Origin: a virus
Virus record (IMG/VR): IMGVR_UViG_3300028883_000060
Coordinates: 1 to 51,393 of that record
Length of the DNA stretch: 51,393 bases
Direction: 5' to 3' (one strand)
Shown here: positions 13,579 to 50,750 of the stretch, piece by piece
How positions within the stretch are numbered: the stretch's first letter is position 1
How the letters are laid out: each line of letters opens with the position of its first letter
The notes under the pieces: generated by a model
Databases searched by the model: none
Seen by the model: only the letters and a program-made list of their open reading frames with translations
What the model was told of the DNA's origin: nothing
Translations under genes and position numbers: made by a program

Positions 13579-13941
13579 TTACGACCCAAAGGCGTCGTTT
13601 ACAGCCGCTTCCAAAATTGTATCGAGTGTGTTAAGGTCGATGTAAATACCGTTGTCGTCCAGGGCCTTTTGAGCCGCCGCCAGAGCAAACTTTTTCTTGG
13701 CTTCACCAAGTTCTGCGATCTTTCCAGTTGCCCCGTTCTGCTCCGCAGCCATAACCGCATCCAACATTATCTTACGAGCGAAGTCGTAATTCTTATCTCC
13801 CATGTCTTGACGCAGTTTGTCTTCCAGAGCAGACCCAACGGCCTTCATCTGTGACACCATTACGGTCAAGATAGGCGGCAAACCAATCGTCAATACCGCA
13901 ACCAAAAGAAGGTTAGCAATATCCCATAATTCTTCAGACAT
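13579..13941 (-). CDS. Holin, LLH superfamily, 120 aa
   Basis: One N-terminal membrane helix (about residues 8-28, IANLLLVAVLTIGLPPILTV) is followed by a charged helical region and a C-terminal segment ending DLNTLDTILEAAVNDAFGS. This is the pattern of the phage holin superfamily 6 (LL-H type). Holins form the membrane lesions that release the endolysin, here probably the GH25 enzyme at 44971-46080. It is the last gene of the late strand, next to other small membrane proteins. Confidence 0.75.
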   Translation of the reverse strand: MSEELWDIANLLLVAVLTIGLPPILTVMVSQMKAVGSALEDKLRQDMGDKNYDFARKIMLDAVMAAEQNGATGKIAELGEAKKKFALAAAQKALDDNGIYIDLNTLDTILEAAVNDAFGS

Positions 13942-26524: not shown

Positions 26525-26944
26525 TCACTCTCGGATTGTTTTGACGCCTTTAAATAGCGGGTTTCCTGATGGGTCCGGTTCCCCCGGAGCTAACAAGATG
26601 CGTGTTTCACCACTAGGTACCTTATCTCGAAGGTGAGCCAACTTTCCTCTCCGTGTGCGCAACCACGGCATTCTCTTTTCTAAAGCTCTACCAACTTTCT
26701 TTGCATACTTCTCTAAACTCTTGCCACCTTTCTTGTCCATCGGTGTTCGAGCTAGAGGCATAAGCATCATAATATCTTGTACGAACCGGGTTTTATCTTC
26801 TTGGATCAACTTCCAGGTAGAGAGCAACCATTCCTGCCCGTACAAATAAACATGGTCTAGGATTTCATCATCCGTCCAATTATAGGCTACTCGGATATCG
26901 TGGAGGATTCTTGCTCCGGTTCCTGTTCCGTATCGGATGTTGAG
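26525..26944 (-). CDS. Tail assembly chaperone frameshift extension (gpT-like)
   Basis: The frame is open from the slippery site at 26944 to its stop at 26525. The only possible internal start is a TTG at 26845 with no good Shine-Dalgarno, so it is most likely made only as a -1 frameshift extension of the gene at 26887-27312. The fusion would be about 262 aa: 123 from the first frame and 139 from this one. It contains basic, Trp-containing helices (LYGQEWLLSTWKLIQEDKTR). In lambda-like phages the G-T fusion binds the tape measure during tail assembly. Confidence 0.75.
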   Translation of the reverse strand, partial: LNIRYGTGTGARILHDIRVAYNWTDDEILDHVYLYGQEWLLSTWKLIQEDKTRFVQDIMMLMPLARTPMDKKGGKSLEKYAKKVGRALEKRMPWLRTRRGKLAHLRDKVPSGETRILLAPGEPDPSGNPLFKGVKTIRE

Positions 26945-27312
26945 AAAAAACTGTCAAGTAGCCTCCTCAACGTAGGGTGTTGCTCGTATACTACAATCCC
27001 CGCCTGGATCAGAGTGGCAGCATCAAAATACAGCATAGCCTCTTCCTCGCTGCATCCAGTAAGGGCCGGGAACAAATCAATCAAAGCGTCCACTGACAAC
27101 TTGTCTAGGATGCCAAGCAAGAACCCCAACCCATCCAGGCCTTCAAGTTCGGCGGAACTCTGAAAAGCATTGAAAATTTCTTGCCCGTATTTTGAAGCCC
27201 ACTGCATAATCCCGTGGACCTGTCGAGCCTGTTGTACGCCGTAGCTGATAAGCTGGTATTCCTTATCGGCAATAAATACACTGGTTCCTTCTAAATAAAC
27301 TGGTTGTGTCAT
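26887..27312 (-). CDS. Tail assembly chaperone (gpG-like), 141 aa
   Basis: Gene order (tail tube, this gene, tape measure) and size identify it as the tail assembly chaperone. The product is acidic and helical (LDGLGFLLGILDKLSVDALI) with a Glu-rich C-terminus. A canonical slippery heptamer T TTT TTC lies at 26950-26944 in its frame (codons AGT TTT TTC). The -1 frame then stays open to 26525, giving the extended product. It starts at 27312 with AGGAG upstream, just past a terminator. Confidence 0.8.
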   Translation of the reverse strand: MTQPVYLEGTSVFIADKEYQLISYGVQQARQVHGIMQWASKYGQEIFNAFQSSAELEGLDGLGFLLGILDKLSVDALIDLFPALTGCSEEEAMLYFDAATLIQAGIVVYEQHPTLRRLLDSFFSTSDTEQEPEQESSTISE

Positions 27313-42004: not shown

Positions 42005-42079
42005 AGCGGGTAGGTCTATGGTGACCAAGCGGACTCCAAACCCGACTGTAGGCAGGTTCGATCCCTGCACCCGCTGCCA
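42005..42079 (+). tRNA. tRNA-Trp (CCA)
   Basis: Acceptor AGCGGGT / ACCCGCT, discriminator G and an encoded CCA end (42077-42079). Anticodon loop CTCCAAA gives CCA. The stem has an A-C mismatch next to the loop. It is one of the few with an encoded CCA. Confidence 0.85.
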
Positions 42080-42172
42080 TGTACATCCCTTTTCCTCTCA
42101 GGGTCACGAGAGTACCGTGCTTTCAGGTCAAACGGAAGCGGGAGTGTAGGCTCGAAACCCCTACACATTCTT

Positions 42173-42245
42173 GCCGGAGAAGCTGAAATGGTTCAGCACT
42201 GGTCTGATATACCAGCGGGTGAGAGTTCGAGTCTCTCCTCCGGTA
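42173..42245 (+). tRNA. tRNA-Ile (GAT)
   Basis: Acceptor GCCGGAG / CTCCGGT, D arm GCTG/CAGC, anticodon loop CTGATAT with stem CTGGT/ACCAG, T arm GAGAG/CTCTC, discriminator A. No encoded CCA. Confidence 0.88.
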
Positions 42246-42781
42246 CTAGCTGACCCACCACGTGTGGGCACAGTAACCTACAACTGATGCGCAGGGCAAC
42301 GAAGTGACCTTGCAGGGAGTAACGCCCCTTATACCGTCTGTGAAAGCGTTTGAAGCGGACGGGTGCTGCGGTAAAAATCCGACATGAGTTGTAGAGCGTA
42401 CCATATGGGAGCCAATGGTTGGGGCTTGTCCAGCCATCCCCGGCACCGGGAGAGCAGTGCCGCCGAGATTGAAACGAGCGCTAGTTTCTGTTTTGTAGAC
42501 CCTAGTAAGCAGTTATGATCTCCCCGTAAAAGGTCAGCGGGAAACTTCACCGTCCTGGGCGTTAATGCTACAGCGGATACCAGACGAACGTCCTACTGGA
42601 CTATGGTAGTCTTGGTCAGTCGGTCAGGTAAAGCTAACCTGATAAAGCCGCACGGTGATTATAAGTACATGAAAGCGTTCCGGCTAATGCAACCCACGTC
42701 GAGTAGTGTACGCCGTCACAGCTTATACGAATGTGGTCCTACAACGGTAAATATTATCCCTTTCTATAACTGTGACATTCC
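42246..42781 (+). ncRNA. Large highly structured non-coding RNA, candidate ornate phage RNA
   Basis: About 530 nt without a credible gene, packed with helices. Perfect or near-perfect stems include CTACAACT/AGTTGTAG (42278-42285 with 42387-42394), ATGGTTGG/CCAGCCAT (42415-42422 with 42430-42437), CGGCAC/GTGCCG (42441-42446 with 42457-42462), GAAAC/GTTTC (42471-42475 with 42484-42488), CCGTC/GACGG (42334-42338 with 42358-42362), CTGG/CCAG (42555-42558 with 42580-42583), TCAGGT/ACCTGA (42624-42629 with 42637-42642) and GTCACAG/CTGTGAC (42715-42721 with 42770-42776). The position between tRNAs of a phage array is that of GOLLD and ROOL RNAs. Family membership is not tested. Confidence 0.6.
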
Positions 42782-42854
42782 GCCTGGATGGTGTAACGGA
42801 CTAGCACGCAGTCCTGCGAAGACTGAGATAAAGGTTCGAGTCCTTTTCCGGGCA
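42782..42854 (+). tRNA. tRNA-Arg (GCG)
   Basis: Acceptor GCCTGGA / TCCGGGC with one T-G pair, D arm GTGT/GCAC, anticodon stem CAGTC/GACTG with loop CTGCGAA (GCG), T arm AAAGG/CCTTT, discriminator A. Confidence 0.85.
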
Positions 42855-42865
42855 CTAGTATGTAA

Positions 42866-42939
42866 GCCTCGCTATAGTCAACTGGTAGACGGTCTCCCTT
42901 ACATGGAGAAGGCTCTAGGTTCGAGTCCTAGGCGGGGCA
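42866..42939 (+). tRNA. tRNA-Val (TAC)
   Basis: Acceptor GCCTCGC / GCGGGGC, anticodon stem TCTCC/GGAGA with loop CTTACAT (TAC), T arm CTAGG/CCTAG, discriminator A. No encoded CCA. Confidence 0.85.
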
Positions 42940-43027
42940 CTATCTACACCATACGCTCGATGGTACTACCCGGTTAAATGGGTTGAAGAAACCAAACGGT
43001 GGTGCGGAGTTAAACCGATAAAAATAA

Positions 43028-43101
43028 GGGGCCATCGTCTACGTTGGTTAGGACAGGAGACTTTCACTCTCCAGAACGGGGATCGTCACCCCGTGGCCTC
43101 A
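43028..43101 (+). tRNA. tRNA-Glu (TTC)
   Basis: Acceptor GGGGCCA / TGGCCTC, anticodon stem GGAGA/TCTCC with loop CTTTCAC (TTC), T arm CGGGG/CCCCG with loop ATCGTCA, discriminator A. The 88-nt gap before it has only short hairpins. Confidence 0.85.
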
Positions 43102-43112
43102 CAGTTTCCCCC

Positions 43113-43141
43113 TTGACAAACAACTGTATATAAGGTAAAAT
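43113..43141 (+). promoter_or_regulatory. Sigma-70-like promoter (leaderless gene)
   Basis: TTGACA (43113-43118) and TAAAAT (43136-43141), 17-nt spacer, CCC before -35. The next ATG is 7 nt after the -10 box. Confidence 0.7.
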
Positions 43142-43148
43142 AGGGCTA

Positions 43149-43316
43149 ATGAAAAACACGTCTGCTAAGAAAGCAAAACAGACTGTCGTTATTGGTCTGG
43201 ACTGGTGGTGCCCAAAGTGTGGCAAGAAAAATAGTCTGTTTAACCCCGTGTGCGCACATTGTGGTAGAGAAAGCAAACTGGCGGCTAGGATTTTCTCTGA
43301 CTATATTGTGCGTTAG
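43149..43316 (+). CDS. Zinc-ribbon protein from a leaderless start, 55 aa
   Basis: The ATG at 43149 is 7 nt past the -10 box of the promoter at 43113-43141, with no Shine-Dalgarno, so a leaderless mRNA is likely. CPKC and CAHC pairs (residues 21-38) form a typical zinc ribbon after a basic N-terminus. Function unknown. Confidence 0.55.
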   Translation: MKNTSAKKAKQTVVIGLDWWCPKCGKKNSLFNPVCAHCGRESKLAARIFSDYIVR

Positions 43317-43340
43317 GCGGCAAATGGAAAGGCTGCTTCC

Positions 43341-43487
43341 ATGAAGATATTATTTTTATTTACGGCATTGCTGATGGTGTACTTGTTAACTATCCCAAAG
43401 TCTTTACCAAAAGAAGGCGATAGAGAAAGAGCAAAGGCAATGTTACTTGTACTGTTTGGGGCCGTAATAGGGTACTTTTTATCTTAG
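43341..43487 (+). CDS. Small membrane protein, 48 aa
   Basis: ATG at 43341, with GGAAAGG about 8 nt upstream. MKILFLFTALLMVYLLTIPK and AMLLVLFGAVIGYFLS are two membrane helices joined by a charged loop. It lies between the zinc-ribbon gene and tRNA-Glu(CTC). Function unknown. Confidence 0.5.
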   Translation: MKILFLFTALLMVYLLTIPKSLPKEGDRERAKAMLLVLFGAVIGYFLS

Positions 43488-43513
43488 TAAGTCTCGTGTT
43501 AAACGTTATTTAA

Positions 43514-43588
43514 GGGATCGTAGTCTAATTGGACCAGGACGCCACGTTCTCAGCGTGGAAGATAGGGGTTCGAGTCCCCTCGATCTCA
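43514..43588 (+). tRNA. tRNA-Glu (CTC)
   Basis: Acceptor GGGATCG / CGATCTC, D arm GTCT/GGAC, anticodon stem CCACG/CGTGG with loop TTCTCAG (CTC), T arm AGGGG/CCCCT, discriminator A. Confidence 0.85.
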
Positions 43589-43603
43589 CAGAAAGGTAAC
43601 ACT

Positions 43604-43732
43604 ATGTCAGCACCTTTGGAAGAAGAAGGAAAACAGATAGTTAGAGAAATAGGACTAATGGGGATCATTATTTGCCTGAAGTTCATACTCACTGTTGCGC
43701 TGATCTGTGCTGGCCTCAATCTATTTATTTAA
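43604..43732 (+). CDS. Small membrane protein, 42 aa
   Basis: ATG at 43604 with AGAAAGG upstream. MSAPLEEEGKQIVREIGLMG then one hydrophobic helix (IIICLKFILTVALICAGLNL). It fits exactly between two tRNAs, ending 3 nt before the next. Function unknown. Confidence 0.5.
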   Translation: MSAPLEEEGKQIVREIGLMGIIICLKFILTVALICAGLNLFI

Positions 43733-43735
43733 CCT

Positions 43736-43808
43736 GCCCTGGTAGTGTAATGGATAGCACACAATGCTCCTAACGTTGTAGGTCTAGGTTCGAGTCCTAG
43801 CCAGGGTA
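43736..43808 (+). tRNA. tRNA-Arg (CCT)
   Basis: Acceptor GCCCTGG / CCAGGGT, D arm GTGT/GCAC, anticodon stem CAATG/CGTTG with loop CTCCTAA (CCT), T arm CTAGG/CCTAG, discriminator A. Confidence 0.85.
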
Positions 43809-43833
43809 CTAATTAGTTTAATTTGGAGTTGAA

Positions 43834-44034
43834 ATGTATTTACTTACCGAAAGACTTCTCAGCAATAATAACGCAGAACTAAAGATACACTATAGGAAGC
43901 CGTACTTTTTCATCCGTGTACAAATAGACGGGATTACTCGCTATCAGATACAGACAAGTACTCTGGCGCTTGCTTTTGAGTTTCTTGAAGAAGAAATCCA
44001 AAACAACCCGGCTATGTGGACTGAGTGTATCTAG
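43834..44034 (+). CDS. Hypothetical protein, 66 aa
   Basis: ATG at 43834 with TTGGAG 5 nt upstream. Begins MYLLTERLLSNNNAELKIHY, a small alpha/beta protein. Its 3' end overlaps by 23 nt the 3' end of the convergent minus-strand lysin extension. Unrecognised. Confidence 0.5.
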   Translation: MYLLTERLLSNNNAELKIHYRKPYFFIRVQIDGITRYQIQTSTLALAFEFLEEEIQNNPAMWTECI

Positions 44035-44992
44035 GTCTTAGATTAGGTATCCCAGATAAGCGCCAACTGGTATAGTACTTAGGAGTGCTGTACCCTTTGT
44101 ACGGTAAGTACTGTAGCGCAATCCACCCGTTTTGTATCTTACCCCATACGCCTGTGGGACACGGATAATACCGTGTTACGGTTACGGATGTCCACGGCTT
44201 GATGTACTCAATAACCGTGCTGTCGTATACGCTTGGGACATCCCTTACAGCAAGCGAAGCGTTAGTAATAACTGTTTTTGGTAGACGGGGGAAGAACTCT
44301 ACCCGCATCGAACAATATTTGTCCTTGAAAGGTATCCACGCTGGTCCTGGTGCTATAACGGGGAAGTAGACTTCCTGAGCGGTTCCAATCTTTGATCCAG
44401 ATGAAATATTAACGTAGTACCCGTTTTTGTGTCCTGCCATGAAGTGCAGGATACGGGTTCCAGCAGTCGTATGGTTCACGTCTTGTACGGACGGAGGGGG
44501 GTCAGTAATATCAAAAGCGTCTATCCTAATTCCAGTGGATGTCCTTTCGAGAACCTTAACCACAGTACCGGACGATACAATAAATTCCGGCTTAGGCATT
44601 TCATCTTCTGACATATACTCGATCTGCCACGGATCAATTTGTTGGTTAGGATCACCAGCCGCATTGATCCATCCCGCTTCCACCTTAAATACTACATTGA
44701 CGGCATCAGGTTTACCGTTAGGGTCTAGCGGTCCGTGACTGTTTAAATCCCGTACAAACAACATCCAGTCCTTAGACAAACGCTGTCTAGGCCACTGAGA
44801 CGCATCCCGCCCGTCTTTTCTGCGTAAAGGGACAACTAGCGGATAAGTGTCTGCCTGTTTATTTCCGCCCCAGAAGTCAGGCAGAGCGCTCCTAAACACT
44901 GGACTATCCTCCCTAATGATAGCTAAGGTGTCATCTTCGCTTAGGTTCGATGATAGGTACGGTAGGTTAGTTACTTTTTTTTTAACAACCAC
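44012..44992 (-). CDS. SH3-containing protein, probable frameshift extension of the endolysin, 326 aa
   Basis: It overlaps the end of the endolysin gene by 22 nt, and the frame is closed by a TAA just before its GTG at 44992. The overlap contains the slippery site A AAA AAG (44980-44974), and the frame relation is -1. It may therefore be translated as an extension of the lysin, though the GTG with weak Shine-Dalgarno could start it alone. It ends in an SH3b-like wall-binding segment (NASLAVRDVPSVYDSTVIEY, TRYYPCPTGVWGKIQNGWIA). The middle is unrecognised. Confidence 0.65.
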   Translation of the reverse strand: MVVKKKVTNLPYLSSNLSEDDTLAIIREDSPVFRSALPDFWGGNKQADTYPLVVPLRRKDGRDASQWPRQRLSKDWMLFVRDLNSHGPLDPNGKPDAVNVVFKVEAGWINAAGDPNQQIDPWQIEYMSEDEMPKPEFIVSSGTVVKVLERTSTGIRIDAFDITDPPPSVQDVNHTTAGTRILHFMAGHKNGYYVNISSGSKIGTAQEVYFPVIAPGPAWIPFKDKYCSMRVEFFPRLPKTVITNASLAVRDVPSVYDSTVIEYIKPWTSVTVTRYYPCPTGVWGKIQNGWIALQYLPYKGYSTPKYYTSWRLSGIPNLRPRYTQST

Positions 44993-46080
44993 TTAGCGGT
45001 CCACCCGGCGTAGACCCCATACTTTGCGGGTACCCACACACCTCGGCCTTTGCTGTCCGGTATTGCGGTGGATGGGTCCACAAGGATATTTGCCGAATAA
45101 GGCATACCGATCACAACGTCCCCTGTTTCTGGGGTTTCCCGTAAGCGAAGGTTGGGGTTCGCCATAACAATGTACTCTTCTGTGTACTTGTCGCCTGGGG
45201 GACTACCACCTTCGTGGCTATGGTTTTCGAAATCTTCTCTGAGGACTGCAAGAGTGGCGTCTAATTCATCGCAGCGCTGTTTTAGTTCTAAGTATTCTTG
45301 ACTACTCATATCACCTTCTCCATCGGTTGTTATCCAGGCAGAATAATCTTCCATTGTGCCGTTGAAATCGTTTGTGTCAATACTTGCTGAAGCGGCACCA
45401 TATGTCTTACCGCAGCCGCCGCAAACTGTACAATTATCACATGTTTGCCAGAGTATCCAGGTCTCCCCGGCGTAGTACCACTCTAAAGGAATACTAGGAG
45501 CAGGCGGGTTACCGTAGTGCGCAATCCATAGATCACGCTCCGCAATCTCTGGCATCCAGGCAACGTTGTCAGACCACCCATAGTAGGATGTGTAAATACC
45601 AATACGTACTCCAGGACACAGTCTATCCATTTCATCAAGAAATTCCCGTATCCAAGTGCGCCCCTGTACTTTTGTGTAACCCGAAAACCCATAATTCTCT
45701 ACGTCTAGCCAATGACGGGTAATCTCTGTAGCTTTTCGGTATTCGTCTTCTGGTAGAGAGTTGATCTGATTGGCCCAGAATTGAGCAGACGCCTTAGCTG
45801 TACAGCGCATATCCGCAAAGTGGTAAGTACCAAAGAAAATGCTCCTTGCCAATAGCTCAGTAATGTAAAACATGTACCGAATGTCTTCCCAAACACCCTG
45901 ACTGGCTTTTACAATAACGCCGATCCCATCAGACGTCTCGTATACATCAAAGTCAAACATCCTAGAACCATCATAAGCACACTGGTACTTACTGATATCA
46001 ATCACTACCCTAGCGTATTGCGATGTAGTTCTTTTGATGACTTGTTGTATTTTGTTTTTAACCTTGACAAGTAAAGACAT
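44971..46080 (-). CDS. GH25 endolysin (muramidase) with SH3 domain, 369 aa
   Basis: Start at 46080 with GAAGGAG at good spacing. Residues 25-240 fit glycoside hydrolase family 25: catalytic D28 (VVIDISKYQ), D126 and E128 (WLDVENYG), then YTSYYGW and WILWQT. A Cys-rich insert (CDNCTVCGGCGKTYG) follows. A linker and a C-terminal SH3-like domain (residues about 305-369, RLRETPETGDVVIGMPYSAN) end in KKK. It cleaves peptidoglycan for lysis with the holin at 13579. The gene ends in a slippery A run. Confidence 0.85.
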   Translation of the reverse strand: MSLLVKVKNKIQQVIKRTTSQYARVVIDISKYQCAYDGSRMFDFDVYETSDGIGVIVKASQGVWEDIRYMFYITELLARSIFFGTYHFADMRCTAKASAQFWANQINSLPEDEYRKATEITRHWLDVENYGFSGYTKVQGRTWIREFLDEMDRLCPGVRIGIYTSYYGWSDNVAWMPEIAERDLWIAHYGNPPAPSIPLEWYYAGETWILWQTCDNCTVCGGCGKTYGAASASIDTNDFNGTMEDYSAWITTDGEGDMSSQEYLELKQRCDELDATLAVLREDFENHSHEGGSPPGDKYTEEYIVMANPNLRLRETPETGDVVIGMPYSANILVDPSTAIPDSKGRGVWVPAKYGVYAGWTAKWLLKKK

Positions 46081-46081
46081 T

Positions 46082-46128
46082 TTTGGTATACTCCTTCTCA
46101 GACACTACAATTGTAGGTATATACCAAA
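46082..46128. promoter_or_regulatory. Divergent operator region with nested palindromes
   Basis: Inverted repeat TTTGGTATA (46082-46090) / TATACCAAA (46120-46128) flanks the palindrome CTACAATTGTAG (46105-46116). It separates the lysin gene (minus) from the gene at 46140 (plus) and shares CTACAAT half-sites with the late motif. Confidence 0.6.
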
Positions 46129-46139
46129 GGACTGGTTAC

Positions 46140-46418
46140 ATGGAATGGAATGCTATCACAGAAGAAAACAAACCAAGACTATATCTTGCTTTGTGCGTCA
46201 GCTTTAACTACGAAAGTGAACCGGTTCTTGTAACACACAAGGATTGGTCATCTTCTCAAAAACACTGTAGGTTTGCGAGGTTGTTTGCAAAAGATAAGAA
46301 CGCTCCCCTCTCTGAAATGTGGTGGGCTACGGATCGTCACGGAGAAAAACTTGATCCTACCCACTGGATGCCCCAACCTGAGCCGTTAGTCCCAGGAGTT
46401 AAACCTACGCTATACTAA
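46140..46418 (+). CDS. Hypothetical protein divergent from the lysin, 92 aa
   Basis: The start at 46140 (MEWNAITEENKPRLYLALCV) has AAAGGA at 8 nt; a frame to 46083 would cross the operator region. Trp-rich small protein with no known motif. It ends 2 nt before tRNA-Thr. It may be a regulator or wall-related protein; unknown. Confidence 0.55.
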   Translation: MEWNAITEENKPRLYLALCVSFNYESEPVLVTHKDWSSSQKHCRFARLFAKDKNAPLSEMWWATDRHGEKLDPTHWMPQPEPLVPGVKPTLY

Positions 46419-46420
46419 TT

Positions 46421-46493
46421 GCCGATGTGGTCGAGTGGTTAAGACGCCTTCTTGGTAAGAAGGAAATCAGGAGTTCGACTCTCCTCTTCGGCT
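46421..46493 (+). tRNA. tRNA-Thr (GGT)
   Basis: Acceptor GCCGATG / CTTCGGC with a T-T mismatch at pair 6, anticodon stem CCTTC/GAAGG with loop TTGGTAA (GGT), T arm AGGAG/CTCCT, discriminator T. Confidence 0.8.
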
Positions 46494-46580
46494 CAAAGGT
46501 CAAGCCAGAGGTAACGAGTGGTATATGCTTCAGTGCTAGTCTGGACGCCAGCTTTATCGCAGAACCACTGACCAAAGTAA

Positions 46581-46652
46581 GCCCGTCAGCCAACGGATAG
46601 GCGGCTTGTCTTCGAAACAAGTAAAATCAAGGTTCGATCCCTTGGACGGGTA
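46581..46652 (+). tRNA. tRNA-Arg (TCG)
   Basis: Acceptor GCCCGTC / GACGGGT, D arm GCC/GGC, anticodon stem CTTGT/ACAAG with loop CTTCGAA (TCG), T arm CAAGG/CCTTG, discriminator A. Before it, 46494-46580 holds nested hairpins (GGTCA/TGACC, GTGGT/ACCAC, CTGG/CCAG) but no tRNA. Confidence 0.82.
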
Positions 46653-46665
46653 CTAGAATTGCCCC

Positions 46666-46694
46666 TTGACAACACAAACATCTTGTAGTAAAAT
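46666..46694 (+). promoter_or_regulatory. Promoter within the tRNA array
   Basis: TTGACA (46666-46671) and TAAAAT (46689-46694), 17-nt spacer, CCCC before the -35. Confidence 0.75.
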
Positions 46695-46726
46695 ACTTCT
46701 ACAAGGTTAGTTACATGACCGGGTTT

Positions 46727-46790
46727 TGCTCTGATGGCTCATTTGGTAGAGCACACAAAAATATAGCAGGTTCGGCTCCTGCCAGGGCAA
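46727..46790 (+). tRNA. tRNA-like element without an anticodon arm
   Basis: Acceptor TGCTCTG / CAGGGCA, D arm GGCTC/GAGC with GGT in the loop, and T arm GCAGG/CCTGC with loop TTCGGCT are all well formed. Between the D and T arms is only a 13-nt AT-rich linker, with no anticodon stem or loop. Total 64 nt. It may be a deleted tRNA pseudogene or a tRNA mimic. Discriminator A. Confidence 0.6.
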
Positions 46791-47021
46791 CAGTTAGGTA
46801 GGTTGGTTGACACTGGATAGTAAATGCCAGAAAGTTAACAAGCGCTAAAGACCTACGTGGGCCTACACGAGTGTGGGTAGCCACAGTCACCTAAAGCGCC
46901 TATAATGGTGACGTTGAACCTTAAAACAACTGCCGAACAACGAGGCGTTGACGTGCTTGACACGTAGCCACGCCTACATCAGTTCCTCCCTGATGAGACC
47001 CGTGAGGTCGTGGAAAACCAC
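46791..47021 (+). ncRNA. Structured spacer RNA between tRNA-like elements
   Basis: Possible helices: TTAGGT/ACCTAA, GTTGAC/GTTAAC enclosing CTGG/CCAG, and CCTACAC/GTGTGGG within GTGG/CCAC. There is no coding frame with support. Probably structured RNA of the array transcript; identity unknown. A hammerhead-like CTGATGA at 46990 lacks the matching GAAA junction. Confidence 0.4.
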
Positions 47022-47140
47022 GCCCCCATAGCTTAGTGGTAGAGCGACTATGGAGTCCTGCATGATAAGATATGGACAAGGTACCACCGGAGGTAGTCAT
47101 GCAGCCATAGTAGGCGGGGGTTTGAATCCCCCTGGGGGCA
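47022..47140 (+). tRNA. tRNA-like element with enlarged anticodon arm
   Basis: Acceptor GCCCCCA / TGGGGGC, D arm GCTT/GAGC and T arm GGGGG/CCCCC (loop TTTGAAT) are intact. The anticodon arm is replaced by a long hairpin: ACTATGG/CCATAGT, then a 4-nt bulge, then CTGCATGA/TCATGCAG (47058-47065 / 47097-47104) closing a 31-nt loop. No normal 7-nt anticodon loop can be drawn. It could be an intron-containing gene or a tRNA mimic. Confidence 0.6.
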
Positions 47141-47171
47141 GCCACGGGTGTAGGCAGTAAAGTTACAAACT

Positions 47172-47245
47172 AGTCTTGTAGCTCAGTTGGTTAGAGCGTT
47201 GCGTTGACATCGCAAAGGCCGTTGGTTCGAGTCCAATCAAGACTA
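47172..47245 (+). tRNA. tRNA-Val (GAC)
   Basis: Acceptor AGTCTTG / CAAGACT, D arm GCTC/GAGC, anticodon stem TTGCG/CGCAA with loop TTGACAT (GAC), T arm GTTGG/CCAAT, discriminator A. Confidence 0.88.
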
Positions 47246-47246
47246 C

Positions 47247-47332
47247 TGCGGAGTAGAGTAGTGGCCTAGCTCACTGGTCTCATAAGCCAGTACGTTTGAT
47301 AAACGTCAGGGGTTCAAATCCCCTCTCCGCCT
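47247..47332 (+). tRNA. Type II tRNA with CAT anticodon
   Basis: A long variable arm (ACGTTT/AAACGT) as in Leu, Ser or Tyr tRNAs, but the loop is CTCATAA (CAT). Acceptor TGCGGAG / CTCCGCC leaves the first pair as T-C, like the 1-72 mismatch of initiator tRNAs. Anticodon stem CTGGT/GCCAG, T arm AGGGG/CCCCT. Could be Met, initiator or a special tRNA. Confidence 0.7.
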
Positions 47333-47335
47333 TAT

Positions 47336-47411
47336 GCCGATGTAGCATAGTCTGGCCTAATGCGCCATGCTCATAACATGGAGATCATTGGTTCAAATCC
47401 AATCATCGGTA
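47336..47411 (+). tRNA. tRNA-Met (CAT)
   Basis: Acceptor GCCGATG / CATCGGT, D arm GCAT/ATGC, anticodon stem CCATG/CATGG with loop CTCATAA (CAT), T arm ATTGG/CCAAT, discriminator A. It could also be Ile (lysidine-modified CAT). Confidence 0.82.
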
Positions 47412-47504
47412 CACACCCTTGGTGAGGTCCCCGCTTTGTGGGGTGGGCCGGGGCCAATACCTAAATAACACCCCACACACAACCTACCATAAAGGAGAAG
47501 CACC

Positions 47505-47690
47505 ATGAAGTTTTACAAGCATATTACCCAGATTGACCCTGAAGTACAGGCCCGTTGGGATAAGTTTTCCCGCACACGGAATCCTGCGGACCGTCCTTCC
47601 GGCCCTAAAGGACCTACCCCGAAGCTGGTAATCTCGAATGTTAAAAGCGGTTCTTCTGGCCCGTGGCAACCGTCCAAGAAGACTACCTAG
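47505..47690 (+). CDS. Hypothetical protein, 61 aa
   Basis: ATG at 47505 with AAAGGAG at 7 nt. MKFYKHITQIDPEVQARWDK and a basic, Pro-rich tail. It fits between tRNA-Met and tRNA-Arg(TCT). The leader 47412-47504 holds GC-rich hairpins (CCCC/GGGG). Function unknown. Confidence 0.5.
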   Translation: MKFYKHITQIDPEVQARWDKFSRTRNPADRPSGPKGPTPKLVISNVKSGSSGPWQPSKKTT

Positions 47691-47695
47691 AATAC

Positions 47696-47768
47696 GCCGC
47701 CATAGCTCAATGGATAGAGCAGTGGTCTTCTAAACCAAAGGTTGAAGGTTCAAGTCCTTCTGGCGGCG
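47696..47768 (+). tRNA. tRNA-Arg (TCT)
   Basis: Acceptor GCCGCCA / TGGCGGC, D arm GCTC/GAGC, anticodon loop CTTCTAA (TCT) on a TGGT/ACCA stem, T arm GAAGG/CCTTC, discriminator G. Confidence 0.85.
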
Positions 47769-47904
47769 CTGATGATTGTAGTACGTTACTAACATACCAA
47801 AGGCTTGAGTTGGCAGGTCTCAGTCGATACAAATTAAACTGCCCCCCACGAAGACCGTGAAGTTATGATAGATATCTCGTAGTTTCACGTAGTGGGGTTA
47901 CTAC

Positions 47905-47976
47905 GCCGCTGAAGCATAGATGGCGATGCGCCGGTCTTGTAAACCGGGGAGTGGAGTTCAAGTCTCCACAGCGGCT
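47905..47976 (+). tRNA. tRNA-Thr (TGT)
   Basis: Acceptor GCCGCTG / CAGCGGC, D arm GCAT/ATGC, anticodon stem CCGGT/ACCGG with loop CTTGTAA (TGT), T arm TGGAG/CTCCA, discriminator T. The preceding 47769-47904 carries hairpins CCCCAC/GTGGGG and GTGAA/TTCAC. Confidence 0.88.
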
Positions 47977-47977
47977 C

Positions 47978-48006
47978 TTGACAGAGTACTCCTTTCGTGA
48001 TATACT
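47978..48006 (+). promoter_or_regulatory. Promoter after tRNA-Thr
   Basis: TTGACA (47978-47983) and TATACT (48001-48006), 17-nt spacer, starting 2 nt after tRNA-Thr. Confidence 0.7.
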
Positions 48007-48039
48007 TGTTTTTGGTGCAAAATACGAAAGGAGATCGAC

Positions 48040-48114
48040 ATGCCATTGCTTTTACTTATCTTGTTTGTGCTTGCAATGTTTGGTTTGTCCTATTGTTCTG
48101 GTCAATCATTTTAG
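48040..48114 (+). CDS. Very small hydrophobic peptide, 24 aa
   Basis: ATG at 48040 with a strong GAAAGGAG site and its own promoter. The product MPLLLLILFVLAMFGLSYCS plus 4 residues is a single hydrophobic helix with one Cys. The strong signals argue it is translated despite its size. Function unknown. Confidence 0.45.
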   Translation: MPLLLLILFVLAMFGLSYCSGQSF

Positions 48115-48122
48115 TGAAATAT

Positions 48123-48195
48123 GGGCGGTACGTATTGGCGAGTGGTACGTCCGGCTTGCACCCGGAAAGACAGGGTTTGACTCCCTGACCGTCCA
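48123..48195 (+). tRNA. tRNA-Ala (TGC)
   Basis: Acceptor GGGCGGT / ACCGTCC, D arm CGTA/TACG, anticodon stem TCCGG/CCGGA with loop CTTGCAC (TGC), T arm CAGGG/CCCTG, discriminator A. The 3rd pair is G-T, the alanine identity signal. Confidence 0.85.
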
Positions 48196-48312
48196 CATGA
48201 CTGCTCTAGTCTAGTCAGCTAGGGCCGAAGGTACGGATAGTAGTAGACCATAAACAGAAGTCCCGTACTGATCCAGCAGAACTGGACGGTATACTGAGAG
48301 GTATACATTCAT

Positions 48313-48384
48313 GTGTCTGTAGCTCAATGGTAGAGCAATGGTCTCTTAAACCAAAGGTTGGTGGTTCGATCCCACTCAGGCACA
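48313..48384 (+). tRNA. tRNA-Lys (CTT)
   Basis: Acceptor GTGTCTG / CAGGCAC, D arm GCTC/GAGC, anticodon loop CTCTTAA (CTT) on TGGT/ACCA, T arm GGTGG/CCACT, discriminator A. Before it, 48196-48312 has hairpins (GTACGG/CCGTAC, CCAG/CTGG, GTATAC/GTATAC). Confidence 0.83.
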
Positions 48385-48392
48385 CAAACCTT

Positions 48393-48466
48393 ACTCTCGT
48401 GGTGTAGCGGCCTAACATACTGCCCTGTCAAGGCAGAGATCGCCGGTTCGAATCCGGTCGGGAGTG
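48393..48466 (+). tRNA. tRNA-Asp (GTC)
   Basis: Acceptor ACTCTCG / CGGGAGT, D arm GTGT/ACAT, anticodon stem CTGCC/GGCAG with loop CTGTCAA (GTC), T arm GCCGG/CCGGT, discriminator G as expected for Asp. Confidence 0.87.
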
Positions 48467-48469
48467 CTA

Positions 48470-48498
48470 AAGCCCGCAGAAATGTGGGCTTGTTTTTT
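48470..48498 (+). terminator. Rho-independent terminator after tRNA-Asp
   Basis: Stem AAGCCCGC / GTGGGCTT with a 6-nt loop, then G and TTTTTT. It ends this tRNA block. Confidence 0.85.
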
Positions 48499-48518
48499 AT
48501 CTACATACGTGGTATAAT
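48490..48518 (+). promoter_or_regulatory. Possible promoter overlapping the terminator
   Basis: TATAAT at 48513-48518, with a weak TTGTTT at 48490-48495, 17-nt spacer. The ATG of the next gene is 9 nt downstream of the -10 box. Confidence 0.5.
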
Positions 48519-48527
48519 GTACTCACT

Positions 48528-48965
48528 ATGGAATCTGTACTATCTAAAAACCTACGGTATTGGTTTGGTAAGCGCTGTAATTATCAGGCGTCTTCAGCGG
48601 AAGTCTCTGCGCTTACGGCTGCGCATCTGGCTTTGATGACTGAGCACCCAATTTCATCTGGCAAACTTATACACGCTAGAACCGGAACCCACGTAGCGAA
48701 AAGGTGGAACCGCATAGTGGTAGGTGCGCACGGTCCATATGTTGAGTTTACTCACTACCAGGATTTCTTCAGCAAACTAATAATCCCTGAGGACCAACTC
48801 TGGAGAGCAGAAGATAAACGGTACAAAGATAGAGTTAAGTACGTGCATTACGAGCTTTCAACCGTTCCTGGTATGAAAGTATACTTTCAAAGGAAGCCAG
48901 TAGTTTACGCTGATTACCGACCGGACGGGTTCTACATAGACTTGTACGAACTAGTAAATGAATAA
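48528..48965 (+). CDS. Hypothetical protein, 145 aa
   Basis: ATG at 48528 lies 9 nt after a TATAAT box with no Shine-Dalgarno, so nearly leaderless. Begins MESVLSKNLRYWFGKRCNYQ; mixed fold, basic and aromatic, with RPDGFYIDLYELVNE at the end. Followed by a terminator. Unrecognised. Confidence 0.55.
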   Translation: MESVLSKNLRYWFGKRCNYQASSAEVSALTAAHLALMTEHPISSGKLIHARTGTHVAKRWNRIVVGAHGPYVEFTHYQDFFSKLIIPEDQLWRAEDKRYKDRVKYVHYELSTVPGMKVYFQRKPVVYADYRPDGFYIDLYELVNE

Positions 48966-48979
48966 CCAAATCTACACTG

Positions 48980-49003
48980 ACCCCGCTACAGGCGGGGTTT
49001 TTA
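48980..49003 (+). terminator. Rho-independent terminator
   Basis: Stem CCCCGC / GCGGGG with a short loop, then TTTTT. It follows the gene at 48528. Confidence 0.85.
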
Positions 49004-49004
49004 T

Positions 49005-49033
49005 TTGACATCCCTTCAAAAATATGATATACT
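49005..49033 (+). promoter_or_regulatory. Promoter of the HNH gene
   Basis: TTGACA (49005-49010) and TATACT (49028-49033), 17-nt spacer. ATG at 49043. Confidence 0.7.
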
Positions 49034-49042
49034 TCTAGTATT

Positions 49043-49519
49043 ATGTTAGGTGGTCTAGGACTTCCAGTTGAAAAAAGAGACAATAAAACCGTCAGCTTTG
49101 ACGATTATATTGTTACCACCACCGGTCGAAATCTCCTTCTAGTAGTAGAAAGTAATTATTGTACGATGACTACTATGGATGTGACCGGAAAATTTCGTAC
49201 CTTTGACCGCAGAACCGTAGACTGGAACACAAAGCTGCACGGCAATCGGCCATCGCAGACGCATTTTAACAGGATGATTTTAGCTAACCTGTATGGCTAC
49301 CAATGTTTGGCATGTGGGGTAGACGACGAACACCTTACCGTGGATCACGTTGTTCCCCGAGCAGAAAACGGCTGGAGTAGTTTATCAAACCTACAGTTGC
49401 TATGCAAAACTTGTAACGTTGCCAAAGCGGATACCTGGATCGACTACCGGTTTTTAACACCAAGCGAGTTGTTTTGGTTATGGGCTGAAGAGTACCGCAA
49501 CAGAATAGAAGGATTGTAG
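49043..49519 (+). CDS. HNH endonuclease, 158 aa
   Basis: ATG at 49043, 9 nt past its -10 box, with no clear Shine-Dalgarno. Residues 88-125 carry the HNH fold: CLAC (C88, C91), D101-H102 in TVDHVVPRAENG, N116 and CKTC (C121, C124). It may be a free-standing homing nuclease targeting the tRNA array, or a packaging nuclease; nothing decides. N-terminal 80 residues are unrecognised. Confidence 0.8.
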   Translation: MLGGLGLPVEKRDNKTVSFDDYIVTTTGRNLLLVVESNYCTMTTMDVTGKFRTFDRRTVDWNTKLHGNRPSQTHFNRMILANLYGYQCLACGVDDEHLTVDHVVPRAENGWSSLSNLQLLCKTCNVAKADTWIDYRFLTPSELFWLWAEEYRNRIEGL

Positions 49520-49629
49520 AAAACACTATGACACTATCGCAACACTCCCCCTTTGGTTTTTCATATGGGCTCAATCAGAGTCTAGTTTGTGTTGGGTAGC
49601 GTCTGGGTCTTATTAGTTCTCCGTTTCCT

Positions 49630-49658
49630 GGGCTACCCCACAAAGGTAGCCCTTTTTT
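49630..49658 (+). terminator. Rho-independent terminator after the HNH region
   Basis: Stem GGGCTACC / GGTAGCCC with a 7-nt loop, then TTTTTT. Stretch 49520-49629 holds no supported gene. Confidence 0.85.
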
Positions 49659-49679
49659 GTTGTCTTATTTTACAGTAAT

Positions 49680-49695
49680 TAACCCATAAGACACA
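49680..49695. repeat. Intergenic repeat copy 2 (AACCCATAAGACACAA)
   Basis: Matches 36009-36024 exactly over 16 bases. It is followed by GGTTTATATATAG and a perf. hairpin GTAGGCC/GGCCTAC (49709-49726). Function unknown. Confidence 0.5.
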
Positions 49696-49747
49696 AGGTT
49701 TATATATAGTAGGCCTTTCGGCCTACAACTGAGACCAGAATTGGCCC

Positions 49748-49776
49748 TTGACAACTAAAGTAGTCTGTAGTAGAAT
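49748..49776 (+). promoter_or_regulatory. Promoter of the second tRNA/tmRNA block
   Basis: TTGACA (49748-49753) and TAGAAT (49771-49776), 17-nt spacer, CCC before -35. It precedes tRNA-Tyr and the tmRNA. Confidence 0.75.
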
Positions 49777-49859
49777 AGGTTTACATCGGAACATTAATAA
49801 CTGAATAGCAACACAACTATAAAATAACGTGTCGCCTTACCCCTAGGCGGCACACACTT

Positions 49860-49938
49860 GGACAGGCTGTCATGGGCGAGACAACCCGGCTGTAACCCGG
49901 CGCTTAACGGCTTGTAGGTTCGACTCCTATCCTGTCCA
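49860..49938 (+). tRNA. tRNA-Tyr (GTA)
   Basis: Acceptor GGACAGG / CCTGTCC, D arm GTC/GAC, anticodon loop CTGTAAC (GTA) on a CCGG stem, medium-long variable region, T arm GTAGG/CCTAT, discriminator A. It ends 4 nt before the tmRNA. Confidence 0.8.
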
Positions 49939-49942
49939 CTAA

Positions 49943-50231
49943 GGGGATGTATTGGACTCGATTGGCGTGAGTATGCTAAAGGTTCGTGCACATCTAATTA
50001 AACGCAAAAGAACAAACTCTTGCTGATGCTCTGTTCGGCGGCATCCCGTCTTTAGCCGAGCAACTGTTTTCTGCGCCCGTAGCAGTAGCGGCCTAGTAGT
50101 TACTCTTGGTGGGTTCACCCTAGCCTAGTCATCCCCAGGTGGACAAGCTCTACTCCGTGAGTGACGGAGAACGCACGTAAAAGCCTGACCCGAAAATGAC
50201 CAAGACGCCGGTTCGACCCCGGCCATCTCCA
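49943..50231 (+). ncRNA. ssrA: Transfer-messenger RNA (tmRNA, ssrA)
   Basis: The 5' end GGGGATGTATTGGACTCGAT matches the tmRNA tRNA-like start, and the 3' end has T arm GCCGG/CCGGC (loop TTCGACC) and acceptor CATCTCC plus A. Their acceptor pairs include G3-U70, the alanine identity signal. A tag frame runs from GCA at 50004 to TAG TAG at 50094-50099: 30 residues beginning AKEQTLADAL and ending PVAVAA, as expected for a proteolysis tag. At 289 nt it is short but in range. It rescues stalled ribosomes with SmpB. Confidence 0.88.
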
Positions 50232-50292
50232 CATGTCTCACTTGTGTGTTCTGAGACAGTCAACTAAATAGAATACATTGATACCGGGACTC

Positions 50293-50354
50293 CGGGTTTG
50301 CCGGACAAGCAGGTAGCGCCTGACGTGTGGGTTCGACCCCCACAGACCCGACCA
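50293..50354 (+). tRNA. tRNA-like element with reduced or absent anticodon arm
   Basis: Acceptor CGGGTTT / AGACCCG (50344-50350), T arm GTGGG/CCCAC with loop TTCGACC, discriminator A and an encoded CCA that abuts the next tRNA. Only 27 nt lie between acceptor and T arm, with a GGTAG D-loop motif, too short for a D arm and an anticodon arm. Probably a truncated proline-like tRNA or mimic. Confidence 0.5.
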
Positions 50355-50429
50355 GCCAGCGTGAAGGGAATTGGCATACCTCGCATACTTAGAATATGTG
50401 GCTTACTGGTTCGAATCCAGTCGTTGGCA
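50355..50429 (+). tRNA. tRNA-Leu (TAG) with a short variable loop
   Basis: Acceptor GCCAGCG / CGTTGGC, D loop GAATTGGCATA, anticodon stem GCATA/TATGT with loop CTTAGAA (TAG), T arm ACTGG/CCAGT, discriminator A. The variable region is only 5 nt, whereas bacterial Leu tRNAs normally have a long arm. Confidence 0.8.
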
Positions 50430-50523
50430 CACAGTCTTTTTCCCAAGACTTGAAGTAGGGCCTCTAATGACGTAACTAGTGGCGATGGGAAACTTGCCGA
50501 GAGTACCGGAAGCTGCGTCGCCT

Positions 50524-50595
50524 GGAGTTGTGCTAGTAACGGTAACTAATCCCCTTGAAGCGGGGAAATTCTCAGTTCGAATCTGAGCGACTCCA
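50524..50595 (+). tRNA. tRNA-Phe (GAA)
   Basis: Acceptor GGAGTTG / CGACTCC, short D stem TAG/CTA, anticodon stem TCCCC/GGGGA with loop TTGAAGC (GAA), T arm CTCAG/CTGAG, discriminator A. Before it 50430-50523 has a long hairpin (GGCGA/TCGCC). Confidence 0.85.
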
Positions 50596-50670
50596 CATCC
50601 GCTTATACCAGAGGTAGCGGAATATAAACGATCTGGTAACTGCCCAAACCGTATGTCGGAAGGGCACTAT

Positions 50671-50743
50671 AGGGAAGAAGAGTTGACGGTAACTCGCTTG
50701 CTTTGGGAGCAAGAAGATGTGGGTTCGACCCCCACCTTCCCTA
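50671..50743 (+). tRNA. tRNA-Pro (TGG)
   Basis: Acceptor AGGGAAG / CTTCCCT, D arm GAGT/ACTC, anticodon stem CTTGC/GCAAG with loop TTTGGGA (TGG), T arm GTGGG/CCCAC, discriminator A. Before it 50596-50670 carries hairpins (CCGCT/AGCGG, ACCAGA/TCTGGT). Confidence 0.87.
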
Positions 50744-50750
50744 CTAAGGC

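Follow-up and report, generated by a model that had tools for sequence, protein, structure and literature searches.

In the window (the whole 51,393-bp stretch of viral DNA analysed), a conserved −1 frame transition at a run of nine A's very probably allows one GH25 endolysin gene to yield two lysins, of 369 and 689 aa. The window was compared with a relative found via its terminase (68% identical), the IMG/VR contig IMGVR_UViG_3300009506_000009 (98.9 kb; locus L002/G001). The sequence of the junction, its phase, its conservation, the −1-frame coding right after the slip and the lack of a start codon shared by the two genomes were all seen directly; from these we infer the occurrence and rate of the shift, the machine behind it and the role of the long form. 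Under the proposed scheme, a single mRNA would bear both frames, and the majority of products would end at the TAA after ...WLLKKK; this 369-aa GH25 muramidase would have a small SH3-like domain at its C-terminus. A fraction of products would cross the A9 with a net −1 frame change and continue to position 44012, giving the 689-aa lysin, which would gain a ~230-aa region of no recognised fold plus a second, SH3b-like wall-binding domain. That slippage on this one conserved A9, whether by RNA polymerase or by the ribosome, sets the ratio of the short to the long, doubly wall-anchored endolysin is a reading that we consider reasonably probable.

The lysin gene and the frame junction

The predicted short form is encoded by ORF1 (369 aa; 46080-44971, minus strand). 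Its GH25 catalytic domain covers residues 27-217 (Pfam PF01183, E=9.5e-19; muramidase M1, PDB 1jfx, E=4e-7), PHROG endolysin families match the protein (best E=3.7e-21), and its C-terminus is weakly SH3-like and ends in LLKKK*. An AGGAG leader is found 10 nt 5′ of the ATG in the window and the relative alike. Close to the end of the GH25 domain lies a CxxCxxCxxC four-cysteine cluster (residues 214-225; about 45405-45441, minus strand), which is conserved between the two genomes (CDNCTVCGGCGK / CDNCTTCGACGK) and is possibly metal-binding.

The lysin gene sits within a tRNA cluster of this 51.4-kb siphovirus contig; the cluster harbours 20 tRNA genes in the window (42005-50744) and 16 in the portion of the relative covered (L002 12439-21662). 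No lysin promoter was recognised directly upstream of the gene. A promoter-like TTGACA-17-TATACT is present over the lysin start at 46064-46092 (plus strand) and is kept in both phages (L002 16029-16057, plus strand), yet this plus-strand site faces away from the lysin; allowing at most two mismatches, the window has 25 occurrences of the pattern versus 9.8 expected. An LLH-type holin (PF09682) is encoded at 13579-13941 (minus strand), ~31 kb from the lysin gene, thus the lysis genes are non-adjacent.

Several elements of the original prediction were read directly in the sequence: the GH25 frame ends TTA AAA AAA AAG TAA, and the frame that follows is in the −1 phase, overlaps it at the A run and is closed by a stop just upstream of a GTG. 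The 3′ end of ORF1 reads TGG TTG TTA AAA AAA AAG TAA, with the 0-frame stop at 44973-44971 (minus strand). The second frame (ORF2; 44986-44012, minus strand) stays open to 44012, ~320 residues past the slip. At the junction, the −1 frame of the window reads GTG GTT GTT AAA AAA AAA GTA ACT, and the stop that closes it upstream is TAA at 44995-44993 (minus strand), the relative having TGA at the aligned codon. The overlap at the A run is short, as had been proposed, and leaves ~24 nt open to a shift rather than the ~20 nt first estimated. Within it are found the A9 run (44983-44975, minus strand) and the heptamer A AAA AAG (44980-44974, minus strand), the phase of which suits −1 tandem slippage and which is immediately followed by TAA. 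The junction therefore combines a slippery sequence located at the overlap with the phase that a programmed −1 frame transition calls for. After the shift, reading would proceed as AAA AAA GTA ACT AAC, and the predicted fused product of 689 residues would read ...LLKKK-VTNLPYLSSN... across the junction (junction-spanning sequence, ...WLLKKKVTNLPYLSSNLSE).

The A9 is the only homopolymer of at least 8 nt in the window and in the sampled 40 kb of the relative, and the next-longest homopolymers in the window are three A7 runs. The bare presence of a 9-nt A/T run in the window is unremarkable (0.7 A/T runs of at least 9 nt expected in the whole window; first-order Markov estimate); an A9 in phase inside a 24-nt overlap, and in two genomes, is surprising against chance. 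None of 20,000 base shuffles left ORF2 open.

Comparison with a diverged relative

The comparison rests on two genomes, both metagenome assemblies. The relative carries both frames between tRNA genes, each with 64% aa identity to its counterpart in the window. The junction, TTAAAAAAAAAGTAACT, is identical over 17 nt in the two genomes, heptamer included, stands in the same phase and is directly followed by TAA; it is the longest identical DNA stretch in the aligned pair, the runner-up being 14 nt. Slip site, phase and downstream frame are thus all conserved in this diverged relative, and the A9 and the frame relation, the conservation of which in related phages had been suggested as a check on the prediction, are both retained.

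Both frames are under purifying selection, as dN is ~0.29-0.30 with silent sites at or near saturation (between window and relative, dN 0.30 and dS 2.3 for ORF1, dN ~0.29 and dS undefined through saturation for ORF2). Between the slip and the earliest GTG of the window that is plausible as an internal start lie 26 codons, and of the three frames only the −1 frame shows protein conservation over them (BLOSUM62 sum of 82, versus 2 and 11 for the other two), with 16 of the 26 residues identical and third-position change in excess (p=0.0027). This stretch must therefore be translated, and a frame change at the A9 would be the simplest of the routes that both genomes share. Codon identity across the lysine run was considered as proof of selection and rejected, since in the remainder of both frames, too, lysines that are conserved often retain their codon (9 of 13 do).

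ORF2 of the relative is closely followed by a strong hairpin (L002 13971-13990) that has a T-rich tail on each strand. Its sequence suggests that it is likely a terminator, and a terminator-like hairpin directly behind ORF2 is expected if both frames form one unit.

Further homologues were sought in several collections. In IMG/VR, searches with single proteins, with alignments of ORF1, ORF2 and terminase, and with DNA polymerase found the pair on one contig only; scans of genome contigs returned no further relative, and phage and plasmid collections held no relative of ORF2. Among 17 other GH25 loci (23-33% identity), an ORF2 relative was present in none, and of the 15 in which the GH25 gene end could be read, none had an A-run slip site there, the other two running off their contigs. 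A homologue with both parts fused in a single frame, which would be strong support, was not found in the searches made.

Routes to the second frame

The net −1 frame change might have two sources, acting singly or together: RNA polymerase slipping on the A9 could insert one more A, the resulting A10 bringing the frames into line, and tRNA-Lys could undergo −1 tandem slippage at A AAA AAG. We regard RNA polymerase and ribosomal slippage as about equally credible, with a slight preference for RNA polymerase; the protein would be the same either way.

That RNA polymerase slippage on the A9 alone gives the long form, the phase of A AAA AAG being incidental, is a tentative reading with close to, though short of, an even chance. 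A homopolymer of approximately 8 or more A/T, as looked for in transcriptional slippage, is present at the junction in both genomes as A9. A nine-A run, no stimulator and two kinds of lysine tRNA together resemble Thermus dnaX (PMC5009743), a run acting without stimulator parallels tssM1 (PMC4256274), and A-runs longer than 7 are tied to transcriptional realignment (PMC3711429). For example, tssM1 of Citrobacter rodentium, with an A11 and no stimulator, yields two protein forms by transcriptional slippage of ~20-25% (PMC4256274), and dnaX of Thermus, an organism with two lysine tRNAs, relies on RNA polymerase slippage (PMC5009743). The in-phase heptamer with its terminal G speaks against this reading, though a random phase would fit one-third of the time.

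That the ribosome alone makes the long form, slipping by −1 at A AAA AAG in the manner of E. coli dnaX, has a chance lying rather below even. In favour of this, the phase of the heptamer fits exactly, few heptamers are more shift-prone in E. coli (PMC4066793; PMC5009743) and a stop codon lies immediately 3′, but no stimulator was detected: the downstream sequence folds no better than shuffles (z about +0.6 in each genome), and no obvious AGGAGG-like element is found directly 5′ of the slip in either genome. Neither of the two features that characterize ribosomal frameshifting of the dnaX/IS type, a 3′ structure or an upstream Shine-Dalgarno-like element, was thus seen. Moreover, both phages encode a tRNA-Lys(CUU), which should make the ribosome less prone to slip at AAG (cf. 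dnaX of Thermus, PMC5009743), and nine A's are kept, not six. Together, the lack of a detected stimulatory structure and the tRNA-Lys(CUU) in both phages make RNA polymerase slippage a serious candidate beside ribosomal slippage.

It is improbable that ORF2 is instead a separate gene, expressed through re-initiation or an internal start codon (GTG 44992, or a later GTG after GGAGG) as a free wall-binding subunit of the sort that endolysins such as CTP1L make from internal in-frame starts (PMC4777826). In the window, the overlap does contain a GTG, its ribosome-binding site match being 3 nt at best, and a later in-frame GTG is preceded by a good ribosome-binding site; this candidate internal start (44915-44897, minus strand, approximate to a few bases) has GGAGG 8 nt 5′ (upstream AGGGAGG) and lies 86 nt past the start of the conserved TTA-A9 motif. 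However, the −1 frame of the relative reads TGA CTG GTA CTT AAA AAA AAA GTA ACT, with no ATG, GTG or TTG before the run and none until 35 nt past the motif start, and no ribosome-binding site was found before its later ATG codons. GTG 44992 is therefore not a shared start. The later GTG is not conserved either, the relative having GTC, then ATG, at this position, and no AGGAGG-like site, so that the downstream frame is devoid of an independent start shared by the two phages. In addition, the 26 codons conserved in the −1 frame lie 5′ of the internal start. Judging from the sequence of the window, an ORF2-only product from its internal GTG could be made alongside the fusion.

Far less probable is a single ordinary gene for a 689-aa lysin, the true run being an A10 that both assemblies miscount. 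Homopolymers are error-prone and one added A joins the frames, but the A9 is identical in two separate contigs with saturated silent sites and frames only 64% identical, neither of which holds another run of at least 8 nt in the sequence covered; the homopolymer error considered in the original prediction is hence unlikely. A recent gene breakage with ORF2 as a decaying remnant is hardly tenable, for the interruption of the frame, a pseudogene hallmark, is shared by two genomes at 64% aa identity, and ORF2 has kept ~320 codons free of stops, its dN being low and its dS saturated. Both the sequencing-error and the pseudogene readings were rejected on conservation in the relative.

Predicted products and comparison with known systems

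As the −1 frame extension of the lysin, ORF2 would contribute a C-terminal SH3b-like domain (44293-44015, minus strand) to the long form. Pfam gave no match for this domain, which was recognised by AlphaFold and Foldseek. The model of the C-terminal 93 aa of ORF2 has a pLDDT of 74 and matches lysostaphin (Foldseek probability 1.00) and the cell-wall-binding domain of phage 2638A (~0.99), these high probabilities being accompanied by modest E-values (0.02-0.3). On this model, the C-terminus of ORF2 is likely an SH3b-like wall-binding domain. The SH3b-like portion comprises only ~60-70 residues preceding the ORF2 tail. Structure prediction for the whole of ORF2 gave no usable model (pLDDT 37), the C-terminus alone being modelled well, and its first ~230 residues had no family match in Pfam, PHROG and further family searches. 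Thus the length of the fusion originally predicted (~690 residues) agrees with the 689 obtained here, while of its two SH3-like domains the second accounts for just a small part of the second frame.

Given the modelled domain, the long form would likely be a second, more strongly wall-bound lysin, and the likely use of the frame change would be to release a compact, diffusible enzyme together with a wall-anchored form at a set ratio. If this is true, the composition of the lysin, and perhaps also diffusion or the timing of lysis, would hinge on how faithfully the host transcribes or translates, and ~320 lysin residues would escape ordinary gene callers.

Most of the programmed frame changes known in phages concern tail and capsid genes. 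To our knowledge, frameshift-made lysins have rarely been reported, in line with the expectation that use in an endolysin would be unusual. Like the lysin here, a Lactococcus phage lysin (Shearman 1994) is reportedly encoded by two overlapping genes, a likeness that rests on the description given by citing papers (PMC10885494, PMC4777826). A precedent is nevertheless on record, as the PRFect authors, citing Shearman 1994, count lysins among the genes known to contain a frameshift (PMC10885494). The lysin frame change predicted here is thus well supported by the two-genome comparison, but as a frameshifted lysin it has an earlier precedent.

The two contigs also share a putative tail assembly chaperone G/GT pair (window 26525-27312, minus strand; relative G001:C1:2587-3003). 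A canonical T TTT TTC slip site (~26950-26944) near the end of the G-position gene, just upstream of the tape measure gene, is kept in both phages, and the GT-like extension is conserved in the −1 frame in window and relative. The G-position gene had no family match and is named from its position before the tape measure gene. With T TTT TTC at the G/GT position in both phages, this two-contig comparison recovers a known kind of frameshift. Like the lysin case, tail chaperone G/GT joins two frames of a tailed phage by a fixed −1 fusion; its product is a structural assembly factor, whereas a lysin is concerned here.

E. coli dnaX and IS3-family transposases use the same heptamer in the same phase as the lysin site. 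In contrast, the dnaX site and the majority of IS sites come with a stimulator, either a structure downstream or a Shine-Dalgarno upstream, neither of which was found at the lysin site, and the dnaX shift shortens the product, whereas the lysin shift would lengthen it. In tssM1 (A11), Thermus dnaX and Shigella mxiE/spa13, an A-run near a stop gives two protein lengths, as predicted here (PMC4256274, PMC5009743), and tssM1, like the lysin junction, has no stimulatory structure (PMC4256274); the lysin run is an A9 in a phage, with slippage predicted from sequence, versus the A11 of tssM1.

Two-form endolysins arising from internal starts are known (PMC4777826, PMC7098653, PMC3111421). In CTP1L, LysIME-EF1, phage 2638A and Ms6 LysA, one gene gives two lysin forms that differ in domains, as proposed here; there a shorter product is made from an internal start in the same frame, whereas here a 3′-terminal frame change would produce a longer form. 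A conserved endolysin frame change would therefore be a third route to two forms from one locus, beside internal starts and separate subunit genes.
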